A DNA stretch of 34,194 bases from a virus, in the IMG/VR virus record IMGVR_UViG_3300037198_000046, positions 1-34,194 of that record; one strand, written 5' to 3'. Under the pieces are notes generated by a model. The model was not told the origin of the DNA. It worked only from the letters and a program-made list of their open reading frames with translations, and made no database searches. A program made the translations under genes and the position numbers. Of the stretch, positions 1-14,476 are shown piece after piece (position 1 is the stretch's first letter; each line of letters opens with the position of its first letter).

Positions 1-1
1 G

Positions 2-658
2 AATCTTCTTGCTTTGTGTGGAACGAATCTAAGCTCAGTTATATGGACTTCGGTGACTGACGGCTGTCCGATTAAACATCGGTTAATTACCGAAAACAAC
101 CGACAACTTGCAAGATGGGACGAAGAAAATTTTTGTGAGCCTATCAAGATCGAAGAGTTTCAAGATCTGGATCTTTCTAAAGTTGAGGCAATAGTTGTTT
201 CGGATTATGGGAAGGGCTCGATTACTCCTGCATTAGTGGCATGGTTAGTTTCTTTAGATAAACCTCTTTTTGTAGATACTAAAGCCGATCCAATTATTTG
301 GCTTGGAGCTAACGATATCGTTCTTTTTCCAAATTATTCTGAATATGAGAAGGCTCGTAGTACCTATGAGTGGTTTCCAAGGGTTCTGCTAAAGCGTGGA
401 CCTGATGGGCTTGCCTGGGTTCAGTACGGGAAGGTGATTTTTTCGCTTCCTTCCGTAACCCAGGATGTTGTGTGCGTGAATGGTGCAGGAGATACGGTAC
501 TTGCAGCATTTGTGAAAGCTCAAATTATAGATAAAGCTTCGATTCTTTCTGCAATGAAATTTGCAAATTACGCAGCGGGCGTGGCTGTTGGAAAGCCTTA
601 TACCTATATAGTAACCGTAGAAGATATGGTACCAAGTAGTTTCATCTCATCTTACTAA
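2..658 (+). CDS. HldE/RfaE-type PfkB sugar kinase, 5' truncated by window edge
   Basis: This is a ribokinase/PfkB-superfamily kinase, closest in motif pattern to the kinase domain of HldE, which phosphorylates D-glycero-beta-D-manno-heptose 7-phosphate at C1 in ADP-heptose synthesis. Numbering from the TTG at 14, visible motifs are VVSDYGKG (61-68), the strand LFVDTKAD (85-92), LFPNYSEYE (104-112), LLKRGPDGL (125-133), the anion-hole/catalytic loop VNGAGDT (155-161, catalytic Asp160) and AAGVAVGK (187-194). The reading frame is open to position 2 with no stop, and the N-terminal sugar-binding lobe is missing, so the gene probably begins outside the window and the TTG is not its start. There is no C-terminal nucleotidyltransferase domain, unlike bifunctional HldE. 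Its stop overlaps the terminase start (TAATG), so the two are translationally coupled. The fold and catalytic Asp are clear; heptose as substrate is inferred from similarity to HldE, and another sugar is possible. Confidence 0.82.
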   Translation, partial: NLLALCGTNLSSVIWTSVTDGCPIKHRLITENNRQLARWDEENFCEPIKIEEFQDLDLSKVEAIVVSDYGKGSITPALVAWLVSLDKPLFVDTKADPIIWLGANDIVLFPNYSEYEKARSTYEWFPRVLLKRGPDGLAWVQYGKVIFSLPSVTQDVVCVNGAGDTVLAAFVKAQIIDKASILSAMKFANYAAGVAVGKPYTYIVTVEDMVPSSFISSY

Positions 659-1527
659 TGCTCCTCGATTCACAGTTTTTTAAGAAAATCTCTACCCTCC
701 CTTCCAAATCTCAGCGAGAGATATTTAAGGTTTTGGGAGAGAGAGAATTTAAGCATTGTGCAGAGAGCCCAGTGTATTGGTTGGATGCTTCAAAGCATCC
801 ACAACTTGAGCAATTTCCCAAAGGGATTCCATACGTATATACGAAGGACCCTCATTTATTATTTACTTGTAAAGAATGTGGGATGGAAGTTTTACCTCAT
901 AAACGAAGTCTACATCTCTCTGTCGTACATGGGAGAGTAAAAACAAGACTTGTGGAAATTGAATCGGAGTTTAAAGAGTTACCTGCAATCCGACCTTTTC
1001 CAGAACTTCTCTTAAATGCCTACATGCTCCCGCTTATCGAAGAGTGGGTTAAAAATCAATACTTCGTGATTGAGAAGTCTCGGGATATGATGGCCACCTG
1101 GATGATTGTAGCGCTTCATACATGGGATTGTTTATTTCATAAAGGACGCCAGCATCTGTTTCAATCCCAAACCGCCCCAAAAACCCTTGAACTCGTTCAG
1201 CGCGCGTATTTTATTGCAAAGCGTCAACCTAAGTTTCTAAGAGATGTGATTGGTCCGGTAGTTTGGGGAAAAGGGGATCATAGATCTGGAGAGATGTATG
1301 TTTTAAAACAGGAGAGTGAGGTGCTTGGATTTGCACAAGGACCGGATCAAATCCGACAGTTCCACCCTTCTGCCGTGTTTCAAGATGAGGCGGCTTTTCA
1401 AATTGAAGCCGAGTCCGCATTTGCGGCAATTAAACCTGCAATTTTGATGGGTGGAAAGTTTGTTGCGATCTCTTCCGCAAATCGAAGTTGGTTTGAAAAG
1501 ATCTGTAGAGACACTAGCGATGAGTAG
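658..1527 (+). CDS. Terminase large subunit, ATPase half (split TerL) with zinc finger
   Basis: This encodes the motor half of the DNA-packaging terminase, which hydrolyses ATP to drive DNA into the prohead through the portal. Residues 137-148 (VIEKSRDMMATW) match the variant Walker A of phage terminases of the K-S-R-x-M type, residues 240-244 (VFQDE) are Walker B with catalytic Glu244, and ISSAN (271-275) matches the coupling motif. The protein stops at residue 289, immediately after the ATPase core, where usual TerL proteins continue into the nuclease. A C2H2-type arrangement (C71, C74, H86, H91) sits in the N-terminal region and probably binds zinc. The nuclease half is encoded separately at 2288-3205, after an intervening methyltransferase gene. 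The start is fixed by the TAATG overlap with the upstream kinase. No small terminase is visible; it may lie to the left. Confidence 0.88.
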   Translation: MLLDSQFFKKISTLPSKSQREIFKVLGEREFKHCAESPVYWLDASKHPQLEQFPKGIPYVYTKDPHLLFTCKECGMEVLPHKRSLHLSVVHGRVKTRLVEIESEFKELPAIRPFPELLLNAYMLPLIEEWVKNQYFVIEKSRDMMATWMIVALHTWDCLFHKGRQHLFQSQTAPKTLELVQRAYFIAKRQPKFLRDVIGPVVWGKGDHRSGEMYVLKQESEVLGFAQGPDQIRQFHPSAVFQDEAAFQIEAESAFAAIKPAILMGGKFVAISSANRSWFEKICRDTSDE

Positions 1528-1535
1528 ACTGGTTT

Positions 1536-2285
1536 ATGACTACACACGATATTGAAACTCGACATGGAAAGATGCGGGTATTTGCCGAAGATCTCTGGGT
1601 TTCTAGATCTCTTCTTGAACTCGGGGAGTACTCTGAGGATGAATATTTATTTTTACGGGAGATAATTCAGACTTTATCCAGTCGCGGGGGACCGATTGAG
1701 ATGGTCGAGGCGGGAGCTTATATTGGGGATTTAACTATTCCTTTAGCGCGTATAGTTAAACATTTATACGCGTTTGAGCCTCAAGAAGAGGTCCGAGAGG
1801 TTTTAGAGTATAATCTGGAAGTAAATAGAATTAAAAATGTAACGGTCTATCCATATGCTTTAGGGGCCGAAACGGGAACTACTTATTATAACGTTGCAAC
1901 CGGAGAAAATGCGGGCGGAACCTTAATGGAAGCGACTGGGTGTCCACGAAAAGATGGAGAACGAAAAGAAGTCCAAGTAGTAACTTTAGATTCTCTAAAC
2001 CTATCTCCCTCTCTTATTAAAGCGGACATAGAAGGGATGGAGAAAGATTTGATTATGGGGGGCCTTCAAACCCTGCGCTCTACCCGATGCCCTTTGTTTG
2101 TGGAGTTTGATGCAGTGGTATTTGAGAATACTCCTCCGTTATATGAGATTTTAAATAATCTAGGTTATACTGTTTTTGCTCATTTCTTTCCTTTTTGGCG
2201 AGAGCTTAATTGGAAAAAAGCTAAGATTAACCCATTTGGTTCGGTAGTATCTAAGATGTTTTATGCCATACCGCCAATTGAATAG
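1536..2285 (+). CDS. FkbM-family SAM-dependent methyltransferase inserted between TerL halves
   Basis: This is a class I methyltransferase of the FkbM type; known members mostly O-methylate sugars or glycosylated products. Motif I is VEAGAYIGDLT (57-67), with the SAM-ribose acidic residue in YAFEP (78-82), and the family-typical IKADIEGMEKDLIMGG lies at 161-176. At 249 residues it is a complete single domain. It starts 8 bases after the stop of the terminase ATPase gene and ends 2 bases before the start of the nuclease gene, so it sits exactly in the linker of an otherwise collinear terminase. No strong ribosome binding site is seen, so coupling to the upstream gene is likely. It shows no endonuclease, intein or intron features. 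Family assignment is confident. The substrate is unknown; a sugar made or attached by the neighbouring kinase and the GT9 transferase at 15,539 is a guess from context. Confidence 0.9.
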   Translation: MTTHDIETRHGKMRVFAEDLWVSRSLLELGEYSEDEYLFLREIIQTLSSRGGPIEMVEAGAYIGDLTIPLARIVKHLYAFEPQEEVREVLEYNLEVNRIKNVTVYPYALGAETGTTYYNVATGENAGGTLMEATGCPRKDGERKEVQVVTLDSLNLSPSLIKADIEGMEKDLIMGGLQTLRSTRCPLFVEFDAVVFENTPPLYEILNNLGYTVFAHFFPFWRELNWKKAKINPFGSVVSKMFYAIPPIE

Positions 2286-2287
2286 TT

Positions 2288-3205
2288 ATGGCTAAGTCTC
2301 TCCACTCCCAGCAAGGCCTAAAGATCGTTCAAAACTCTAAAAATGGATTTGTAGTAGCGACTCTACATTATACGGCGGACCCTCGAAAGCGCTCGAAGGA
2401 ATGGAAAGCTGAAGCCGTTCAGGGAATGTCTAAAGCTAAAGCCGAACAAGAGTTCGAAATTAGCTATGATGCAATGTTGGGAGAGAAGATTTTTCCTGAA
2501 ATCAAATCTCGACAATCCGAGATTATCTTTCATGAGGGACCATTCCAGTTTAATGACTGGCCTAAGAATATTCCAATGTGGGGAGGATTAGATTATGGAA
2601 GCCGAAATCCTTCTGCCTTCCATATTTATACTATAGTCGATGGGTGCCTATATGCGATATGGGAACTCTACGAACCCTGCAAAGATATCCTGAATTTTGT
2701 CGAGAAGATGAAGAACTGCCCATTTTGGCCACAGATACGATATATAGCCCATGATCCTTCTATGAATTCATTGACTCAACGGGATATGAAGACTGGAGGG
2801 ATGACTACGGTTGCTCGCCAGTTTGTGGAATTAGGGATTACTAGACTTCTCCCAGGTAATACGGATGAGCAGGCTTGGTTTGTTCAGATGCAAAAGCACT
2901 GGTGTGGAGAGGAGATAACTTTTAAGATCATGTCTTCCTGCCCAAAATTAATCGAGGAGTTCGAGGCCGCTACGTATGTTTCAATGTCCGAGAGACAATT
3001 AGAGACTTCGAATTTTAGGGAAGCAATGGTGGATAAAAAAAACCACGCTCTGGATGCTTGTAAGTATGTAATGAACTCCTCTCTTCCACTTAAACCACGA
3101 AATATAGTTCTTCCAAATACCGCCGCAAAGTTTGGATTTGGTAGTATTGGATCGCTACCCTCAAAGCGTATGAGTCAAGATAAGGAATGGATGTTTTTGA
3201 GATAA
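2288..3205 (+). CDS. Terminase large subunit, nuclease half (split TerL)
   Basis: This is the C-terminal RNase H-like endonuclease of TerL, which cuts concatemeric DNA at the start and end of packaging. Candidate metal ligands are Asp102 in GGLDYGS (99-105), Asp156 in IAHDPSM (153-159) and Asp256 in KKNHALDAC (250-258). The first 45 residues (including NGFVVATLHYTADP, 19-32) correspond to the segment that follows the ATPase coupling motif in unsplit terminases, so little or nothing of the protein has been lost. The 305-residue length agrees with a complete nuclease domain. The ATG lies 2 bases after the methyltransferase stop and lacks a clear Shine-Dalgarno, suggesting translation by coupling. 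Together with the gene at 658-1527 it makes a two-polypeptide terminase that must assemble in trans. Confidence 0.88.
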   Translation: MAKSLHSQQGLKIVQNSKNGFVVATLHYTADPRKRSKEWKAEAVQGMSKAKAEQEFEISYDAMLGEKIFPEIKSRQSEIIFHEGPFQFNDWPKNIPMWGGLDYGSRNPSAFHIYTIVDGCLYAIWELYEPCKDILNFVEKMKNCPFWPQIRYIAHDPSMNSLTQRDMKTGGMTTVARQFVELGITRLLPGNTDEQAWFVQMQKHWCGEEITFKIMSSCPKLIEEFEAATYVSMSERQLETSNFREAMVDKKNHALDACKYVMNSSLPLKPRNIVLPNTAAKFGFGSIGSLPSKRMSQDKEWMFLR

Positions 3206-3227
3206 CGCTTCCTAGGAAACCTAATAT

Positions 3228-5603
3228 ATGGCCATAGTCCAACTAGAACACGCATATCCAATCGACTTTGCAGGCGGGCATAACGAAGCTACTCCAGATT
3301 ATCCTTCCAACTCCGAGGAAGCTAAGGTCGCAGCATATATATGTACTTGGCGGCAGCAATGTCGTTCTGTCTTTATTCAACGCCGAAACATCTGGGACGA
3401 TTGCTGGAAGTTATATCGTGGATTGGATGACTGGTCCGTGAAGGATGACTGGCAGTCAAAGATCGTTCTTCCTAAGAGTTGGACCTCGGTTAAGATGGCA
3501 ACAAACACTATTAAACGTCTCTTAACTGCGGCTAAGAAGCCCTGGAATATTGAAAGCGCCAATCCAGACGATATTATTACTACAATTCGTGCCGAGCAAC
3601 TCACATATCTTACTCGGCATTTTCTAGACAAAGCCTACTTCTTAAAGGAATTTACGGAGGGCCTTGAGTGTGGGTTTATGCTGGGAGTGGGTGTATGGAA
3701 ACTTTGGTGGGGACTACTTCCCCGTAAACAAACTCGTATTCAGACGGTGTTCGTTCCAATGCCTTCTCAATCTCCTCAAGGACCTTCAAACGCGATACTT
3801 GGGCAGGAATCGCTCCCGCAACTTGGAAGAAGCGGGGAGGGAATGGGTGGAGAAGAAGGGCAGCCAACTCTCCTTGCCCCGGAGCCCGCCCCTCAAAAAG
3901 TTCCCGCGCCTTTTGGGCAGCCAAGATTTGGGTATCGTCAACAAGATCTAGGTCTCTACCCCTCTCAACTTGGTGGAGAGTATCTCTCTCCTAGTGGATG
4001 GGGAATAGGTGGAGGAGGAAGTGAGGCCCCCCAGTCATATCTTCAAACCACAGTTCCTCAAAAGAAACTAATCCAAGAAGAGATTTTGGAAGGGAGATTA
4101 TTTCTTCGCGCGGTAGATCCATATAACTTCTATTGGCTTCCCGGTTCAAAACTTAATCGTTGGGTAGGAACGATTGAAGATATAGAAATACCAAAGTGGG
4201 AGCTTATAAAGATGGCAGATGCCGGGGTATTTCCCCGAGAGAAGATAGATCGTCTTCAATCCATGAGGATTGATGAGAGATATAAAATGTCAAATCTGAG
4301 ATTCGCCGAAACGGTGATGACTCAGAATGGACCAAACTCCGACACTGCCGTTTGCAAACTCACTGAGTATTATGGTCCTATCGTGTTTGATGGAAAGATC
4401 GTAAAGGAGTTTGCACATGTTATTTTGGGTAATGACTCGACTGTACTGGTATACCAGGATAACCCATTCTTACATCAAAAGCCTCCGTATATTGCGTTTT
4501 CACCCCTCTCCCTCCCCTTTAGGACGGAGGGTGTGGGGCTTATCGAAAATGTACGTTTTATCGATAAAGCTTTGTCGCAAATCGCCAACTTATCGGTAGA
4601 TACGTTGATGTTTAGGTTATTGCCTCTTTTTGAGGTAGCAGTTGAGGCATTTGAGAATCCCGAGGACCTAGAGACGGGTATTGTTCCCGGAAAGATGCTT
4701 CGTAAAAATCTGGGAAATGCCGGGATTGCGGGAATTAGGCCAGTCGAATTTCAAGATATTTCCGGGGGAACTACCCAAGTTGCAGCGATGTTAGATCGCG
4801 CTCATCAGGAAGGAGCATTGATTTCAGATATCGCCGAGGGATTACCTAGATGGAAAGGCCAGCAAACCGCAACTGAATCCAGTCTTCTCCAACAACAATC
4901 GGAATCGTTTATGGGCGGGATGGCGGCGGATATCGAGAAAGAAGCAATCGAGCCTTTGGTAACGATGGCGATGGATCTGATATTTCAGTTTATCGATACC
5001 GCAAACGATCCGAGGGTGGCTTCGATTTTAGGAGTAGGAAGCGACGTTCTTAATGGAATGAGTAGAGAAGAGGTTATAGAACTCATTCAAGGAGATTATA
5101 AGGTTAAGAGCGTGGGGATTACTGGACAACTTATGAAGGCTGAGATGCTTCAGAATCTTGTGCAGCTTATGAACTTGATTGGACAGAATCCTCAGGCGTG
5201 GCTTCCATATATTAACCAAGATGCGCTTTTGAGACGGATCTTGGAGTGTTTTAGACCTCATATTTATGAGATTGAAGATATAATTGCAGATCCGGCGATG
5301 CAGCAAGCTAAGAAACTTGAGATGACTCAGCAAGCTTCGGTATCGCATTTGATTGGGTTATTGCCTGCATTACTTCAACATTCCCAAACCCAAACCCAAC
5401 AAGAACAGGATAAGGGTTTGGCATTACAAGAACAAACTCACCAACGGGATCTTGCTCAGATGGATCAGCATATCCAAGTAGCTCAGATGGCGCTTCAACA
5501 CACCCAGGAGATGGGGGCACAAAATCTTCAGGCCCAACAACTTCAACGGCAGCAAGCCCCGCTCCAACAGCAAGCGGCTTCTGCACAAGGAAATAGGCAA
5601 TGA
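3228..5603 (+). CDS. Portal protein
   Basis: This is the dodecameric portal through which DNA enters and leaves the capsid. It follows the terminase directly, as in most tailed phages. At 791 residues it is in the size range of podovirus portals. Recognisable elements are the N-terminal LPKSWTSVKMATNTIKRLL (81-99), the YNFYWLPGSKLNRWVG segment near 300, long helices rich in Ile/Leu through 440-680 and a strongly glutamine-rich C-terminus (about 715-791) of the kind that forms the portal barrel or disordered tail. Residues about 175-275 are a proline/glycine/glutamine-rich low-complexity insert that interrupts the N-terminal wing and is unusual for portals. An AGGAAA ribosome binding site precedes the ATG. 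The stop overlaps the next start (ATGA). Assignment rests on position, size and motifs rather than on a single diagnostic signature. Confidence 0.85.
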   Translation: MAIVQLEHAYPIDFAGGHNEATPDYPSNSEEAKVAAYICTWRQQCRSVFIQRRNIWDDCWKLYRGLDDWSVKDDWQSKIVLPKSWTSVKMATNTIKRLLTAAKKPWNIESANPDDIITTIRAEQLTYLTRHFLDKAYFLKEFTEGLECGFMLGVGVWKLWWGLLPRKQTRIQTVFVPMPSQSPQGPSNAILGQESLPQLGRSGEGMGGEEGQPTLLAPEPAPQKVPAPFGQPRFGYRQQDLGLYPSQLGGEYLSPSGWGIGGGGSEAPQSYLQTTVPQKKLIQEEILEGRLFLRAVDPYNFYWLPGSKLNRWVGTIEDIEIPKWELIKMADAGVFPREKIDRLQSMRIDERYKMSNLRFAETVMTQNGPNSDTAVCKLTEYYGPIVFDGKIVKEFAHVILGNDSTVLVYQDNPFLHQKPPYIAFSPLSLPFRTEGVGLIENVRFIDKALSQIANLSVDTLMFRLLPLFEVAVEAFENPEDLETGIVPGKMLRKNLGNAGIAGIRPVEFQDISGGTTQVAAMLDRAHQEGALISDIAEGLPRWKGQQTATESSLLQQQSESFMGGMAADIEKEAIEPLVTMAMDLIFQFIDTANDPRVASILGVGSDVLNGMSREEVIELIQGDYKVKSVGITGQLMKAEMLQNLVQLMNLIGQNPQAWLPYINQDALLRRILECFRPHIYEIEDIIADPAMQQAKKLEMTQQASVSHLIGLLPALLQHSQTQTQQEQDKGLALQEQTHQRDLAQMDQHIQVAQMALQHTQEMGAQNLQAQQLQRQQAPLQQQAASAQGNRQ

Positions 5604-6310
5604 TTAAGAGTTTAGTTGAGATTATAATTTGTGGGCTCATTACTTTAGGTCTAGGACAAACGCAACCTTATCATCCAAGCCAAATGACGTATTATCCGGG
5701 ATTGTATTTTGATTTTGGTACCTCAACCCCTTCTCAGTGTTCGGTACCGGCGTATTATTATAATACCTCCGGTTCGGGAACGTTATATGTTTGTGCTCCT
5801 CCAGGAACGATGGTGGCAGCAGGGAGCGGGGCAGGGAGCGGGGCGGGAACGGGTAGTTGTACAAACCAGGTAGTAACGGCGGTAAATACGTCTACGGCAC
5901 CAACTTGTAATACTATTACTAGTGCCTATGTGGATTCGAGTGTGCTGTCGCAATCCGATATTCCGACTTTCGCGATCTGCACCACGGCGGGTTGTGCGGT
6001 AGAAACGACGTTTAATAACTGGTTTGTCTCGGCGTCAAGTGGCATTACTTTTGATGAGTGTGGATTTGCATTACAAACTGCCCCCACTGTGCAGTCGGTG
6101 ATTGTGGATATTCAAACGGCGGCTGGAGTGTCGATCTTTGGGGCCACCAAATTGGTGATTGCAACGAGTGCGAGCACCACCACGTTTCAGTCCACGTTTG
6201 CCAACTCGCCCCAGACGGCGGCGAAGGGAGCTCAGTTCAAGGCGGTGATTACGCAGAGCGACACGGGCGGCGCGGCGCTCGGGGGCTATGTGAAGTGCCG
6301 GGTCCACTAA
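5600..6310 (+). CDS. Secreted protein with composition change inside the gene
   Basis: A 236-residue protein of unknown function. It begins with a hydrophobic signal sequence (1-20, ending GLGQ), then a Tyr/Pro/Ser-rich segment with cysteines, a Gly/Ala/Ser linker (about 73-85) encoded by a short tandem repeat, and a C-terminal domain (about 145-236) rich in Thr, Ser, Val and Ala that looks like a beta-sandwich of the kind found at the ends of phage fibres. The first 200 bases are AT-rich like the rest of the phage, while the 3' third is as GC-rich as the next gene. The gene therefore looks chimeric. It overlaps the portal stop by ATGA and ends 10 bases before the next gene. A host-interaction or secreted role is plausible, but no family is recognised. 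Confidence 0.6.
   Translation: MIKSLVEIIICGLITLGLGQTQPYHPSQMTYYPGLYFDFGTSTPSQCSVPAYYYNTSGSGTLYVCAPPGTMVAAGSGAGSGAGTGSCTNQVVTAVNTSTAPTCNTITSAYVDSSVLSQSDIPTFAICTTAGCAVETTFNNWFVSASSGITFDECGFALQTAPTVQSVIVDIQTAAGVSIFGATKLVIATSASTTTFQSTFANSPQTAAKGAQFKAVITQSDTGGAALGGYVKCRVH
5819..5842 (+). repeat. 12-bp tandem repeat at the left edge of the GC-rich cassette
   Basis: Two exact head-to-tail copies of GCAGGGAGCGGG are followed by a partial copy (GCGGG). They encode the Gly/Ala/Ser linker of the 236-aa protein. The repeat lies where base composition begins to shift, so it may mark a recombination or slippage site. Confidence 0.75.
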
Positions 6311-6320
6311 GGAGGATGCG

Positions 6321-9300
6321 ATGATACGGACACTTCTGCTTCTCATACTTGTCTCACCAGCCTTCGGGCAGATTACGGCGGGGAACTACGGGCAAGGCGG
6401 TCCTAGTGGCTCGGGCGTCTCGACCGTCTCTACTGGGGCGATCACTGGCTGTGCGACGGCGGGGGCGTACTTCTTCGTTGGCAGTTTCACAAACCAGATC
6501 GGCGCGGCTGGGTACACTGTTGCCTCCACATCGATAAGTTCCGGAAACTGGCATCAAAGCGCTCTGTTGAATACCGAAACCGGGTATTTCTGGGCCTACT
6601 CTGCGTCGATCACAGACAGCGAGGTAATCACCGTCACCAAGAGTGGTTCCCTCTACGTAGCAACCATTAAGGGCCAATGCTTTGCGGGAGTTAATGCGAC
6701 CTTCGCCAATCAGTTGGATCAAACCAATTCGCACTGGTGTGGAAACAACACGTATGGGAGCAGTTGCCAGCCGGGCTCGATCACGCCGACGCAGGCGTCG
6801 GAGTTGATTGTGAGTGGTTGCATTGATAATAAAAACGAAATTAACAGCGTCAACAGCGGCTTTACGGCTATCGGCACACTGCCTCTGGGCGGCTCGCAAG
6901 CGTACTTGATTCAGACCTCCGTGTCTGCGGTGAACCCGACCTGGGCATTCACTACGGACTACCACTACTTCGGATGTTGGATTGCATCATTCAAAGCGGC
7001 GAGTCCGACCTTGGACTACACCGTCTCGGGGCCTTCGAGTGGGCAAGACTACAACGCATCCACCGCGTTTACCGTCTCGAAGGTCTCGGGAAACTGGAAC
7101 GGCTCGATGACAATCATCATTGCCGACGGCTCACAGGGTGGTGCGATTACGCCAAGCGTCGGAGCGCCAGGGACCTCGACCGTTACGGTAACACCAACGA
7201 ACGGGAGTTCGTCGTTCACGTTTATGTATACCCCCAACGTGGTGGGAGCCATCACCTTGAGCTTCAGCGGAACCGGCATGGCGGGTTCGAATCCGAATCC
7301 ATCCATCTACACCAGCATCGCGTTGACCATAACCAACTCCTGCGTAAGCAGTACTGGCGTGCTGGGTGTGGCTTCCAGCACCTGTACGATCACGGCGTCC
7401 TTGACCTTTAACGGAACTCAGACTGTCACCTTGGCCGATGATTCTGAGTATGTCTGCGGGACGTTCACGCCGAGCGTGGGCAGCCCGGCGTGTGGGACCG
7501 TGACGGTGACGCCTTCGAGCGGGAGCACCTTCACCTATACGTACACGCCACTGGGTCCCGTCGGGCTGCGGATTTTTGTGGTGACAAACAACTTCTCCGC
7601 GACGAATCCGGCGAACGTGACCTATACGGCCACATCTGCGGATGTCTGCACGATGACCGCTGCGGCCGCCGGCAACTGGAACGCGGCAGGGACGTGGACT
7701 CCATCGGGCTGCACGGGCGGTGGCCACACCACGCCGGCCGCAGGCGACACGGTGACGATCACCGGCTACTCGGTGGTGTGCTCGACGGGGACCTGCTATG
7801 CGGGCACTGCGCCAGCGAACAACACCACGTACGACCTGACTATCGCACAGAGCGGCAGCGGGTCCGGGGTGCTGGAGGTTTCTTCCGGGGCGACTCTTTT
7901 CGTCACAGGCAATTTCAAGTTGAACAGTTCGGCGGGAGCGAGCCCGACCCACTTCGCAGTTTTCAAGCTGGACACTGGAGCGACGTTCGTCCACGACAAC
8001 GCGAATGGGAGCGTTCAGTACCGAGGTTATGGTGGCACGAGCACCAACTGGAACAACATCGTCTTCGGCACGCAGGGCGACGTCTGCACCTTCAGTAGCA
8101 ACTTCGGCTACTCTTGCCAGACGAAGTACATCGGCGCCGATGTCGCCGGAGGTTACAACCCGGTCTTGTTCGCGATGGGTACGTTGTACGATGACATCAC
8201 CTACCAGATTTACGGGAGCAGTTTCAGAAACTGCGGAGCGTCCACCGTCCCCTGCCTGGACTATGGGAGTAACAATAACGCCAATGGGTATGCTAATGCT
8301 GGAGTCATCGATGTGGAGGACAGCGTGTTCGACACCACAAGCACGCTGGGCAGCGCAGGGACGTACTACGCGTCGGCTCTGACAAAGCTGACATGGCTTC
8401 GCAGTCGGACGGTGAACGATATCATAGGATGGTTGAATGCAAATCCAACTCATATGTTGGGTCTCGCTGGAGCCATCAATACCTGTACGGTGGCAGGGAA
8501 CTACTTTGCTTCGGAAACTGGAGTGGGACAGACCGATTACTTTCAGGGCTGTACTTGGAGCGGGAATGTCTTCCCATTGGGGTGGATGCTAAATACGAGC
8601 GCGACTCACCCGACAGGGACATTTACGAATAACGTGGTTGTAACCCAAGGCGCTTACTCTTTCCCGAGCGCCCATTGGAGCAGCCTGAATAACGTTTGGC
8701 TGGCAACCACGAGCGGTCCATCATCCGTTCACATGGGACCGGCATTTAATACAAGTGGTCCCTACAAGCTATTTGGGTCGGTGGCTCAAAAATGGAACAC
8801 GACACCGCAGGCCAGCGAGGGTCACTGTGGTTTGGGTGGGGATTCGGCTACGGGCGAATCCCAGTATGTCCTGGACAATCTTGGCATCGTGGGCAATAGT
8901 GGCGATCCGCCGTGTCAATGGTGGGATTCAGCTAACGGAAATCCGTCCGGTCCAGGGACGGTTGGATACGTGGATCACAACGGCGAGAACGGCTTGGGGT
9001 ACCTTGGGTGGATGGTAACCGCGGGGCACTCGGTTCTACACTACCCTACCAATGCGGCATTGGCGTCATTGCGAGCCAACATCGGCTGGTCGCCGACTAC
9101 GGGCGTGAGCAATCTGATGTTTGCCGATCTTCAAGGCGCTGGCACGGCACCCAATACGATGATCGGAGCTAGTAGTGTTGTGGACTGGAACAACATGTAC
9201 AACGGGTACACTTCGACGTTGTTCAGCGGCGGTCTGGATACGAATTGTAACCCCTCGACGTTCAATAGCAGCCCCTACCAGATTTGCGCCAGCATCGGCG

Positions 9301-9842
9301 GACCTGGTGCCCACGAAATAACCGTGAGTCCCAAGTATGTGGACACCACGCGGGGATTCGACACCTGGGCATCTCGCGTCAAATCGCAGGCATCGAGTTT
9401 GGCCGGTTATCTCCAAGCCCTCTGGCAATGCAGCGACATCAGGTCCTGCATCGACCAGTCGTGGGCCTGGGTCCGACAGGGGTGGCAGCCGACAAACCTT
9501 GCGCTCAAGGGCACGGCCCATGACGGGAAGATCATCGGGTTCAGTGGCACCCTGGGGAGTGGGTACTCGGGGACGTGCGGGGTTACGATCACGCCACGGG
9601 ACGCTTGGGACTTGGGCGGCACCATCGCGCCACATGCGGCGAGCGCGACCTGCACGTTCAGCGGTGGCGTGCCACAGATCACGCTGGTCTCGGGTGGCGC
9701 GCACTACCGGGTTGCGACGCCGGCAACGGTGGCGGTTACAGGCACCTGCACGGGCGGATGTGTGGCGGCATCGCTGGTGCCAATCATTCAGCCATCCGAT
9801 ATTGGGCCGGTGTCGATAGCGATTCTGCCATCGGCGTTTTAG
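6321..9842 (+). CDS. Large secreted multidomain beta-rich protein (G8-like/beta-helix)
   Basis: A 1,173-residue protein with a clean signal peptide (1-16, ending SPAFGQ). Residues about 20-225 form a Gly/Ser/Thr-rich domain with paired cysteines. About 228-440 hold two Ig-like units (starting near TLDYTVSGPSSG, each ending in a TVTVTP-type strand and a Tyr-Thr-Pro turn). From about 445 the pattern GNWNAAGTWTP followed by PAAGDTVTI resembles a G8-type domain, leading into Asn/Gly-rich stretches (500-900) compatible with a right-handed beta-helix. A small Cys-containing beta-domain closes the protein. An AAGGAGG ribosome binding site lies 5 bases before the ATG. Such architecture suits an adhesin, a depolymerase or a receptor-binding protein, but no catalytic residues can be named. 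A Sec signal peptide is unusual in a virion protein, so it may act in or on the infected cell's envelope. Confidence 0.65.
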   Translation: MIRTLLLLILVSPAFGQITAGNYGQGGPSGSGVSTVSTGAITGCATAGAYFFVGSFTNQIGAAGYTVASTSISSGNWHQSALLNTETGYFWAYSASITDSEVITVTKSGSLYVATIKGQCFAGVNATFANQLDQTNSHWCGNNTYGSSCQPGSITPTQASELIVSGCIDNKNEINSVNSGFTAIGTLPLGGSQAYLIQTSVSAVNPTWAFTTDYHYFGCWIASFKAASPTLDYTVSGPSSGQDYNASTAFTVSKVSGNWNGSMTIIIADGSQGGAITPSVGAPGTSTVTVTPTNGSSSFTFMYTPNVVGAITLSFSGTGMAGSNPNPSIYTSIALTITNSCVSSTGVLGVASSTCTITASLTFNGTQTVTLADDSEYVCGTFTPSVGSPACGTVTVTPSSGSTFTYTYTPLGPVGLRIFVVTNNFSATNPANVTYTATSADVCTMTAAAAGNWNAAGTWTPSGCTGGGHTTPAAGDTVTITGYSVVCSTGTCYAGTAPANNTTYDLTIAQSGSGSGVLEVSSGATLFVTGNFKLNSSAGASPTHFAVFKLDTGATFVHDNANGSVQYRGYGGTSTNWNNIVFGTQGDVCTFSSNFGYSCQTKYIGADVAGGYNPVLFAMGTLYDDITYQIYGSSFRNCGASTVPCLDYGSNNNANGYANAGVIDVEDSVFDTTSTLGSAGTYYASALTKLTWLRSRTVNDIIGWLNANPTHMLGLAGAINTCTVAGNYFASETGVGQTDYFQGCTWSGNVFPLGWMLNTSATHPTGTFTNNVVVTQGAYSFPSAHWSSLNNVWLATTSGPSSVHMGPAFNTSGPYKLFGSVAQKWNTTPQASEGHCGLGGDSATGESQYVLDNLGIVGNSGDPPCQWWDSANGNPSGPGTVGYVDHNGENGLGYLGWMVTAGHSVLHYPTNAALASLRANIGWSPTTGVSNLMFADLQGAGTAPNTMIGASSVVDWNNMYNGYTSTLFSGGLDTNCNPSTFNSSPYQICASIGGPGAHEITVSPKYVDTTRGFDTWASRVKSQASSLAGYLQALWQCSDIRSCIDQSWAWVRQGWQPTNLALKGTAHDGKIIGFSGTLGSGYSGTCGVTITPRDAWDLGGTIAPHAASATCTFSGGVPQITLVSGGAHYRVATPATVAVTGTCTGGCVAASLVPIIQPSDIGPVSIAILPSAF

Positions 9843-13522: not shown

Positions 13523-14476
13523 ATGGCAGGTCAACAGTATTCGACAGGTAGCCTTGGTGGTTATTTGTCTCAGCCTTACCTCACGCAAAGATTGCGTGCG
13601 CAGGCGCAGCCTCAGTTTCGCTTTCGGCAATTTGTCGATGTGAAGGAAAGCATCGGTAAAAACCGGGGCGATACGTGGCTTTTCGATAAGCGAGGAAATG
13701 TGACGACGCAAGGAACGATTCTTGCGGAAACTAACACAATGCCTCAGACCAACTTTACAGTTGGACAAGGGACGGGAGTAATCGTAGAATACGGTAACTC
13801 CGTGCCCTACACCGGAAAGTTGGAAGCTCTTGGCCAAATTATGATCGAGCCTGCCGTTGAGCAGAGTCTTCGAGACGATATGGTTAAGGCCCTAGAAAGC
13901 GCGGCTGGCTCTCAATATGTAACTACCGATTTTATCGCAGTTATGTATGGAACGGCAAGCACGGTTATTACTACAAATAGCGTCGCAGGCTCTACCGCGT
14001 CCGCAGATCTCACGGGCTATAACGTTCGTGCGATTGTGGATTTTATGAAGAAGAAACTTATCCCGAAGTTTGATGGGCAGAGTTATATCTGTATTGCTTC
14101 TACGGCGGCTCTGAGTGGACTGTTTAGCGATACTGCGACTGGTGGTTGGGTGGATGTTTCGAAGTATACCGTGGATTTTGCGAAGAATATTTTTAACGGG
14201 GAAATTGGGAAGTACTACAATACCCGATTCGTGGAAGAGACGGGATATCTTTCGAACACGATTGGAAATAGCTCGATACATGGACAGGCGGTGTTTTTTG
14301 GGGCAGATGCGGTTTATGAGGCCGTGGCAATTCCCGAAGAGCTTCGCGTGAAAGTGTCAACAGACTATGGACGCGACCAGGGTTTGGCTTGGTACTTCCT
14401 GGGCGGGTGGAAAACGGTGTGGAACTACGCGACTACTCCTGCGGAGCAACATATTGTTTATGTGACCAGCCTGTAA
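13523..14476 (+). CDS. Major capsid protein, N4 gp56-like (HK97 fold)
   Basis: The 317-residue protein forms the icosahedral shell. Features of the N4 gp56-type coat family are the N-terminal arm (LTQRLRAQAQPQFRFRQFVD, 20-39), the FDKRG/QGT segment, a central helix followed by KLIPKFDGQSYICIAS (177-192), the GEIGKYYNTRFVEE segment (about 231-244), and a C-terminal strand-rich A-domain with GLAWYFLGGWKTVW (about 290-303). It follows the scaffold gene, precedes a decoration-like gene and has a very good ribosome binding site. No N-terminal prodomain is apparent. The family is inferred from motif pattern and context. Confidence 0.87.
   Translation: MAGQQYSTGSLGGYLSQPYLTQRLRAQAQPQFRFRQFVDVKESIGKNRGDTWLFDKRGNVTTQGTILAETNTMPQTNFTVGQGTGVIVEYGNSVPYTGKLEALGQIMIEPAVEQSLRDDMVKALESAAGSQYVTTDFIAVMYGTASTVITTNSVAGSTASADLTGYNVRAIVDFMKKKLIPKFDGQSYICIASTAALSGLFSDTATGGWVDVSKYTVDFAKNIFNGEIGKYYNTRFVEETGYLSNTIGNSSIHGQAVFFGADAVYEAVAIPEELRVKVSTDYGRDQGLAWYFLGGWKTVWNYATTPAEQHIVYVTSL

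Follow-up and report, generated by a model that had tools for sequence, protein, structure and literature searches.

How can a tailed phage carry the large subunit of its terminase (TerL) as two genes rather than one? This question is raised by IMG/VR virus record IMGVR_UViG_3300037198_000046, whose 34,194 bases are referred to here as the window. TerL is the motor of tailed phages and serves as a near-universal single-chain marker; in the window, its ATPase half and its nuclease half are separate genes, with a gene for a methyltransferase of the FkbM family between them. Sequence, predicted fold and phylogeny together indicate that the large terminase is very probably encoded by two genes that have long been inherited separately and whose chains would assemble in trans. 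What matters is less the insertion of fkbM than a terminase that a whole clade has kept as two chains since early on, with the break separating engine from lever.

TerL chain 1 (658..1527, + strand, 289 amino acids) is the ATP-binding (ASCE) core. It matches the PHROG TerL family phrog_2 (E 1e-8), and its family profile finds the T4 gp17 ATPase in the PDB (E 1e-7). TerL chain 2 (2288..3205, + strand, 305 amino acids) comprises the lid (transmission) subdomain and a RuvC/RNase H-like nuclease; it matches three PHROG TerL (nuclease) families (best E 4e-7), as well as the D6E and SPP1 TerL nucleases. The gene in the gap (1536..2285, + strand, 249 amino acids) encodes an FkbM-family S-adenosylmethionine (SAM) methyltransferase, with matches to Pfam PF05050 (E 1e-13, 52.2 bits; curated cut-off 22.7), NCBIfam fkbM_fam TIGR01444 (E 7e-23, 81.6 bits; cut-off 37.7) and phrog_8156. 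An 8-base spacer (1528..1535, +) separates the chain 1 stop from the fkbM start, and 2 bases (2286..2287, +) separate the fkbM stop from the nuclease start (TAGTTATG), a spacing compatible with coupled translation. The terL-region genes and the portal gene all lie on the + strand, and the three middle open reading frames (ORFs) occupy three different frames. In the window, terL adjoins portal and head genes, the typical context of a Caudoviricetes TerL. ORFs and family matches thus agree with the earlier note on this DNA, which had described a TerL split around a complete 249-residue FkbM methyltransferase with spacings of 8 and 2 bases. The note had also raised an assembly error as a possible cause of the split. 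This is ruled out, since the same DNA occurs in other IMG/VR assemblies: two other contigs carry the complete arrangement at an identity of at least 99.9%, and a third (99%) begins inside fkbM and covers fkbM, nuclease and portal, i.e. the second junction.

The catalytic parts of both chains are preserved. The Walker A-like P-loop EKSRDMMATW (1072..1101, +) departs from the usual form: the position of the usual GK lysine (K166 in T4) is Ala in the window and never Lys in 39 aligned rows, and an invariant lysine, K140, stands two residues ahead of the arginine, R142. The same lysine shift is found in fused relatives (PKSRQ) and in phage RM378 (EKPRQ). The Walker B Asp-Glu pair (D243 E244; 1384..1389, +) and S272 of the ATPase coupling motif SSAN (1471..1482, +) are invariant; across the 39 chain 1 homologues, E139, K140, R142, D143, M144, D243, E244 and S272 do not vary. 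In chain 2, the acidic nuclease residues D102, E126, D156 and D256 (2591..3055, +) are invariant in 38 homologues, as are H253 and others. The earlier assignment of ATPase motifs to the first half and acidic nuclease motifs to the second is therefore borne out by both alignments.

Structure prediction gives the same assignment. Chain 1 is predicted to fold as a TerL ATPase (predicted local distance difference test, pLDDT, 93; best match T4 gp17) and chain 2 as a TerL nuclease (pLDDT 84; best match D6E TerL, with SPP1, P22 and G20c also matched). In the AlphaFold model of chain 2, strands 3-26 and helices 37-56 form an N-terminal part of their own, ahead of the nuclease sheet, which begins at residue 97. 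Foldseek against D6E TerL aligns ~198 columns, extending to ~253 in some chains at large root-mean-square deviation, as expected if lid and nuclease are both present and oriented differently. Set against the features that define a TerL, the ATPase motifs and the acidic nuclease site are in place, and the one-polypeptide form is not. Sequence, fold and context clearly mark the enzyme as a TerL; what is new is its departure from the single chain.

Invariant catalytic residues in 38-39 rows also bear on whether the split copy is a decaying pseudogene while another terminase packages the DNA, which is highly improbable. Among the related loci (numbered here with the prefix L), a frame break in the ATPase half of L047 and the fragmented state of L086 would fit decay. 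Against it stand those residues, a divergence that looks purifying, a cluster that runs on into portal and major head protein genes, and the lack of a second TerL. Nonsynonymous divergence (dN) is ~0.2 in both halves and 0.46 in fkbM; synonymous divergence is saturated, leaving only dN usable. No second or intact TerL was found with the phrog_2, A6 and A7 profiles in 12 records of up to 75 kb, a negative that falls short of proving absence, as the records are drafts, phrog_2 misses 7 of the 12, the result depends mainly on A6 and A7, and a TerL of entirely different ancestry could escape. The chain 1 gene is single in 11 of the 12 larger records, the twelfth (that of L047) holding one gene in two overlapping pieces; the chain 2 gene is single in all 11 records that reach that far. 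Thus, where the earlier note had allowed for a decaying duplicate beside an intact TerL elsewhere, one copy of each half and no second TerL were found. The ATPase half of L047 (L047:7986-8847) lies in two overlapping frames, reflecting either a real frameshift or a sequencing error.

Where the chain is broken was determined by profile alignment. Chain 1 aligns with residues 98-305 of T4 gp17 (E 1e-22) and stops 14 residues past the coupling motif; residues 16-70 of chain 2 align with T4 gp17 303-363, weakly in direct comparison (probability 32%, E 5e-4), and fused relatives align with T4 across the same lid region. When the halves were aligned with unsplit TerLs, a check that the earlier note had proposed, both proved colinear with single-chain relatives: chain 1 until just past the coupling motif (E 1e-30), chain 2 from their lid onwards (E 1e-54). 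Subdomain II of T4 gp17 consists of residues 1-58 and about 314-360. By these alignments, the chain is interrupted near position 305 of T4 gp17, after the ATP-binding core and ahead of the lid (transmission) subdomain, and lid, hinge and nuclease remain on one chain; the lid corresponds approximately to chain 2 residues 1-72 (2288..2503, +). A split at the ATPase/nuclease border, as the earlier note had it, was dropped following the alignment to T4, which puts the break inside the ATPase domain, ahead of the lid. Cutting T4 gp17 artificially at its ATPase/nuclease linker is reported to preserve both activities and to abolish translocation (PMC3012670, PMC9958956); that linker is not the joint at which the natural break lies.

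The age of the break follows from its distribution. Relatives were collected from viral and genome contigs with profiles of the ATPase half and the nuclease half, giving ~110 loci (some sharing a record), which were sorted into three forms by hidden Markov model scores for both halves. The first form is a single chain of 574-596 amino acids (L014-L021, L112, L113), or 778 in L081. The second consists of two abutting or overlapping genes (L052-L078, L083, L084 and others, and also L080, which lies inside the window's clade). The third has two genes and a gap of 0.8-4.9 kb, and is found in the window and ~30 other records. The search for related genomes with the same order, also suggested earlier, thus recovered ~30 diverged viral contigs with TerL broken at the window's position (39-76% amino-acid identity). 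In the sister clade the halves abut or overlap by 1-4 bases and carry no cargo; more distant relatives and every T4-like TerL examined are single chains. Across the aligned gapped forms, chain 1 stops a few residues past the coupling motif region (consensus SSANxxWFxxxCRD) and chain 2 starts immediately ahead of LHxxxGLxI...LHYTADPxKR; because these ends and starts are shared, the break is homologous across the clade.

A recent chance insertion of fkbM into the terL of one phage, at a site that tolerates it, would account for the tight 8- and 2-base fit of the gene. Its probability is negligible, as the same break occurs in gapless relatives and in relatives whose gap lacks FkbM (L022, L023, L008, L012 and others); since the split is present in both, FkbM is merely one occupant of an old gap. 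Of the two options left by the earlier note, an ancient two-gene terminase is the one supported, by the ~30 diverged contigs and the cargo-free sister clade. The other, an insertion of FkbM exactly at a domain border, does not hold: the split predates FkbM, one of several interchangeable occupants, and the border concerned is that between ATP-binding core and lid instead of ATPase and nuclease.

The gap has been filled in a consistent manner. Counted over 31 gapped loci, SAM methyltransferases, one or more, are present in 29 gaps (FkbM 9, TylF-like 7, Methyltransf_11-like 15), and a nucleotidyltransferase resembling HldE domain II in 24; the latter is missing from the window's subclade. In almost every gapped locus that extends far enough, the gene upstream of chain 1 encodes a PfkB kinase related to HldE domain I, and the two HldE-like domains are thus separate genes on either side of the terL core gene (e.g. 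L012:3552-4337, 6169-6717). Queries derived from the gaps found none of the gap gene families in 312 kb of flanking sequence from the same loci; in L044, outside that set, FkbM lies upstream of pfkB. Other contents include lysis-type genes (Amidase_2, endolysin-like), DUF1353 and, in one terL gap, a 631-amino-acid class II ribonucleotide reductase-like protein (L035:9737-11632). Judged by these gene families, the gap content is evidently non-random, a sugar-nucleotide and methylation module that appears interleaved with terL; its target can be guessed to be a cell-surface glycan or a virion sugar. An HNH endonuclease gene (phrog_2255) directly follows chain 1 in three of the 31 loci (L010:1083-1598, L038:8873-9244, L047:8852-9298), which hints at a role for homing endonucleases; HNH relatives lie elsewhere in L013, L026 and L101, and the window's gap holds no homing endonuclease.

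How often the break arose was addressed with an IQ-TREE phylogeny of 56 rows, each combining the two halves. The gapped forms make up one clade with a support of 100/98 (27 gapped rows and L080), and the abutting forms another (100/100), which also contains L049, the single-chain L081 and the small-gap L051. In a tree rooted on T4-like TerLs, the single-chain forms diverge first and all split forms group together, with a support of 83 in the Shimodaira–Hasegawa-like approximate likelihood ratio test (SH-aLRT); L081 falls within that group. Most simply, a single fission would have produced an abutting pair, the window's clade would later have gained its gap genes, and one lineage would have re-fused. 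A rather unlikely alternative is that the core/lid junction, a tolerated site, was split several times independently, possibly through free-standing HNH homing endonucleases. This would explain the single chain of L081 among split forms and the HNH genes placed immediately after the ATPase half in L010, L038 and L047, but parsimony prefers a single fission with a single re-fusion, the break position is common to the records of the window's clade, and HNH genes occur only here and there. This alternative competes with the proposed history and leaves the two-chain function untouched.

Would the two genes nevertheless give rise to one chain? Jug phage terL lies in 2-3 fragments with group I introns between them, and its fragments are seen in RNA reads to be spliced back into one frame (PMC12363816). 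Because of this precedent, splicing is the main rival: the gap would be a self-splicing intron carrying the gap ORFs, and the mature message would encode a single TerL chain. The HNH endonucleases directly behind the ATPase half in three related gaps would suit an intron. Even so, it is very unlikely. No Rfam intron was matched in the window (E<=1 over 1-5000; gathering threshold over the whole window) or, at the gathering threshold, in 13 related loci; in the sister clade and L080 an intron would find no space, as the two genes there touch or overlap; a stop or start of its own, conserved in position throughout the clade, marks each half; and the gap contents are mostly metabolic or lysis genes rather than homing genes.

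Other routes to a single product were rejected as well. In the abutting relatives the nuclease start occurs in all three relative frames, which makes conserved frameshifting unlikely; a programmed frameshift was set aside because these frames vary and because a 760-nt stretch with another gene lies between the halves in the window (slippery sites were not searched). The short chain ends leave no room for split inteins: chain 1 ends 14 residues past the coupling motif, chain 2 begins at the lid, and Pfam scans of both halves gave no intein domain. Stop/start overlaps of the ATGA or TAATG type are common in the abutting relatives, and in the window the pfkB stop overlaps the chain 1 start (TAATG). 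Start codons touching or overlapping upstream stops suggest one operon, with translation coupled between pfkB and chain 1 and between fkbM and chain 2.

Several points weigh against the two-chain account and its history. The support for the single-fission node is moderate (83), and L081, a single chain among split forms, makes re-fusion or several fissions possible. The direct profile match behind the mapping to the T4 lid is weak, and the fused relatives provide the bridge. A ribozyme absent from Rfam may reside in the gapped forms. All carriers are uncultured contigs, and the arrangement is found in no isolate among 50,697 phage records; isolates gave either no match or weak ones (<27% identity), to proteins that carry ordinary TerL annotations.

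As the best account of these genes, we nonetheless infer that the two chains assemble in trans. One gene fission in a common ancestor would have produced an abutting pair whose translation was maintained by stop/start overlap; in the window's clade, a module of HldE-like nucleotidyltransferase and SAM methyltransferase (here FkbM) would later have entered the gap. The two chains would be made separately and assemble at the portal, where the core would meet the lid across a chain interface instead of through a covalent loop. As lid and nuclease are covalently joined, the lid-to-nuclease linker is intact. A more far-reaching version, somewhat doubtful as a whole, holds both that the motor is obligately two-chained, with the cutting chain regulated in its amount or presence independently of the engine, and that the gap module is held by selection. 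A ring of ATP-hydrolysing cores might then act via non-covalent lids on a separate lid-nuclease chain, and the module might be kept, for example, because the conserved terL halves offer fixed flanks for recombination exchange of gap genes.

Interrupted or divided phage and viral enzymes are known from several systems. In herpesvirus UL15, the terminase coding sequence is interrupted, with other genes in the interval, and eukaryotic mRNA splicing rejoins it to one chain. The window resembles UL15 in that other genes interrupt a terminase coding sequence, and differs in having two separate genes where UL15 yields one chain after splicing. Compared with T4 gp17 and other single-chain TerLs, the enzymatic parts, their order, the Walker B and coupling motifs, the nuclease acids and the predicted folds are the same, but there are two chains here, broken between ATP-binding core and lid. 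The Jug phage terL likewise consists of pieces with other ORFs between them; unlike it, the present lineage has no intron that was found, its cargo-free relatives leave no space for one, and its gap genes are mostly metabolic. Aeh1 NrdA and the 43A/43B DNA polymerase of phage 25 are split enzymes shown experimentally to be reassembled in trans; the splitter was the homing endonuclease mobE in Aeh1 nrdA and possibly an untranslated insert in phage 25 (PMC2988022). They share with the window an essential phage enzyme in two genes, but they are other enzymes in single phages, whereas the terL split is clade-wide, with mostly sugar-metabolism and methyltransferase genes in the gap. The phi29-type gp16 is also a packaging ATPase without an active fused nuclease; its nuclease-like domain is vestigial and fused (PMC7672431), whereas here the nuclease is intact on its own gene, with all catalytic residues. 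No description of a two-gene TerL without splicing was found in the open-access literature, subscription papers being outside this coverage.

The lineage can serve as a natural experiment on which covalent link the motor requires and on how ATP hydrolysis reaches the lid and the DNA-gripping domain. It suggests that engine and lever-plus-cutter could be made as separate parts and still give a working motor. In practical terms, a search that insists on a full-length TerL would overlook phages of this kind or record them truncated.

The hosts are probably soil Acidobacteria. Of the 8 genome-contig loci matched by the ATPase profile, one bears a Thaumarchaeota title and the other seven those of Acidobacteriota groups (Angelobacter and Bryobacteraceae among them); only L079 and L080 fall inside the window's own clade, and the nuclease profile found no relatives among genome contigs. 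L079 lies on a 63.6-kb contig of a metagenome-assembled genome titled Thaumarchaeota archaeon, which may reflect a binning error or an archaeal host.

Upstream of chain 1, the window carries a gene for a PfkB-type sugar kinase (14..658, +; HldE domain I-like heptose-7-phosphate kinase) whose 5' end is lost at the contig end; the full-length copy in L002 matches TIGR02198 rfaE_dom_I (E 2e-40, under the curated cut-off). Downstream, the next gene of the packaging and head cluster encodes the portal protein (3228..5603, +; phrog_1216, E 8e-21), and the major head protein is at 13523-14476. The ATPase parts of L081 (969-3305) and L049 (7338-8513) have an N-terminal extension of ~200-260 amino acids with two transposase-like helix-turn-helix repeats; judged by eye from the sequence, this is possibly a small-terminase-like DNA-binding part fused to TerL. 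The many apparent changes in the fkbM of L004 all lie in the first ~50 bases of its contig and were discounted as an end effect. Within a 1173-amino-acid ORF of the window (6321-9842), the three other assemblies all differ from the window at positions 6498, 6499 and 6504 and are otherwise near-identical nearby.

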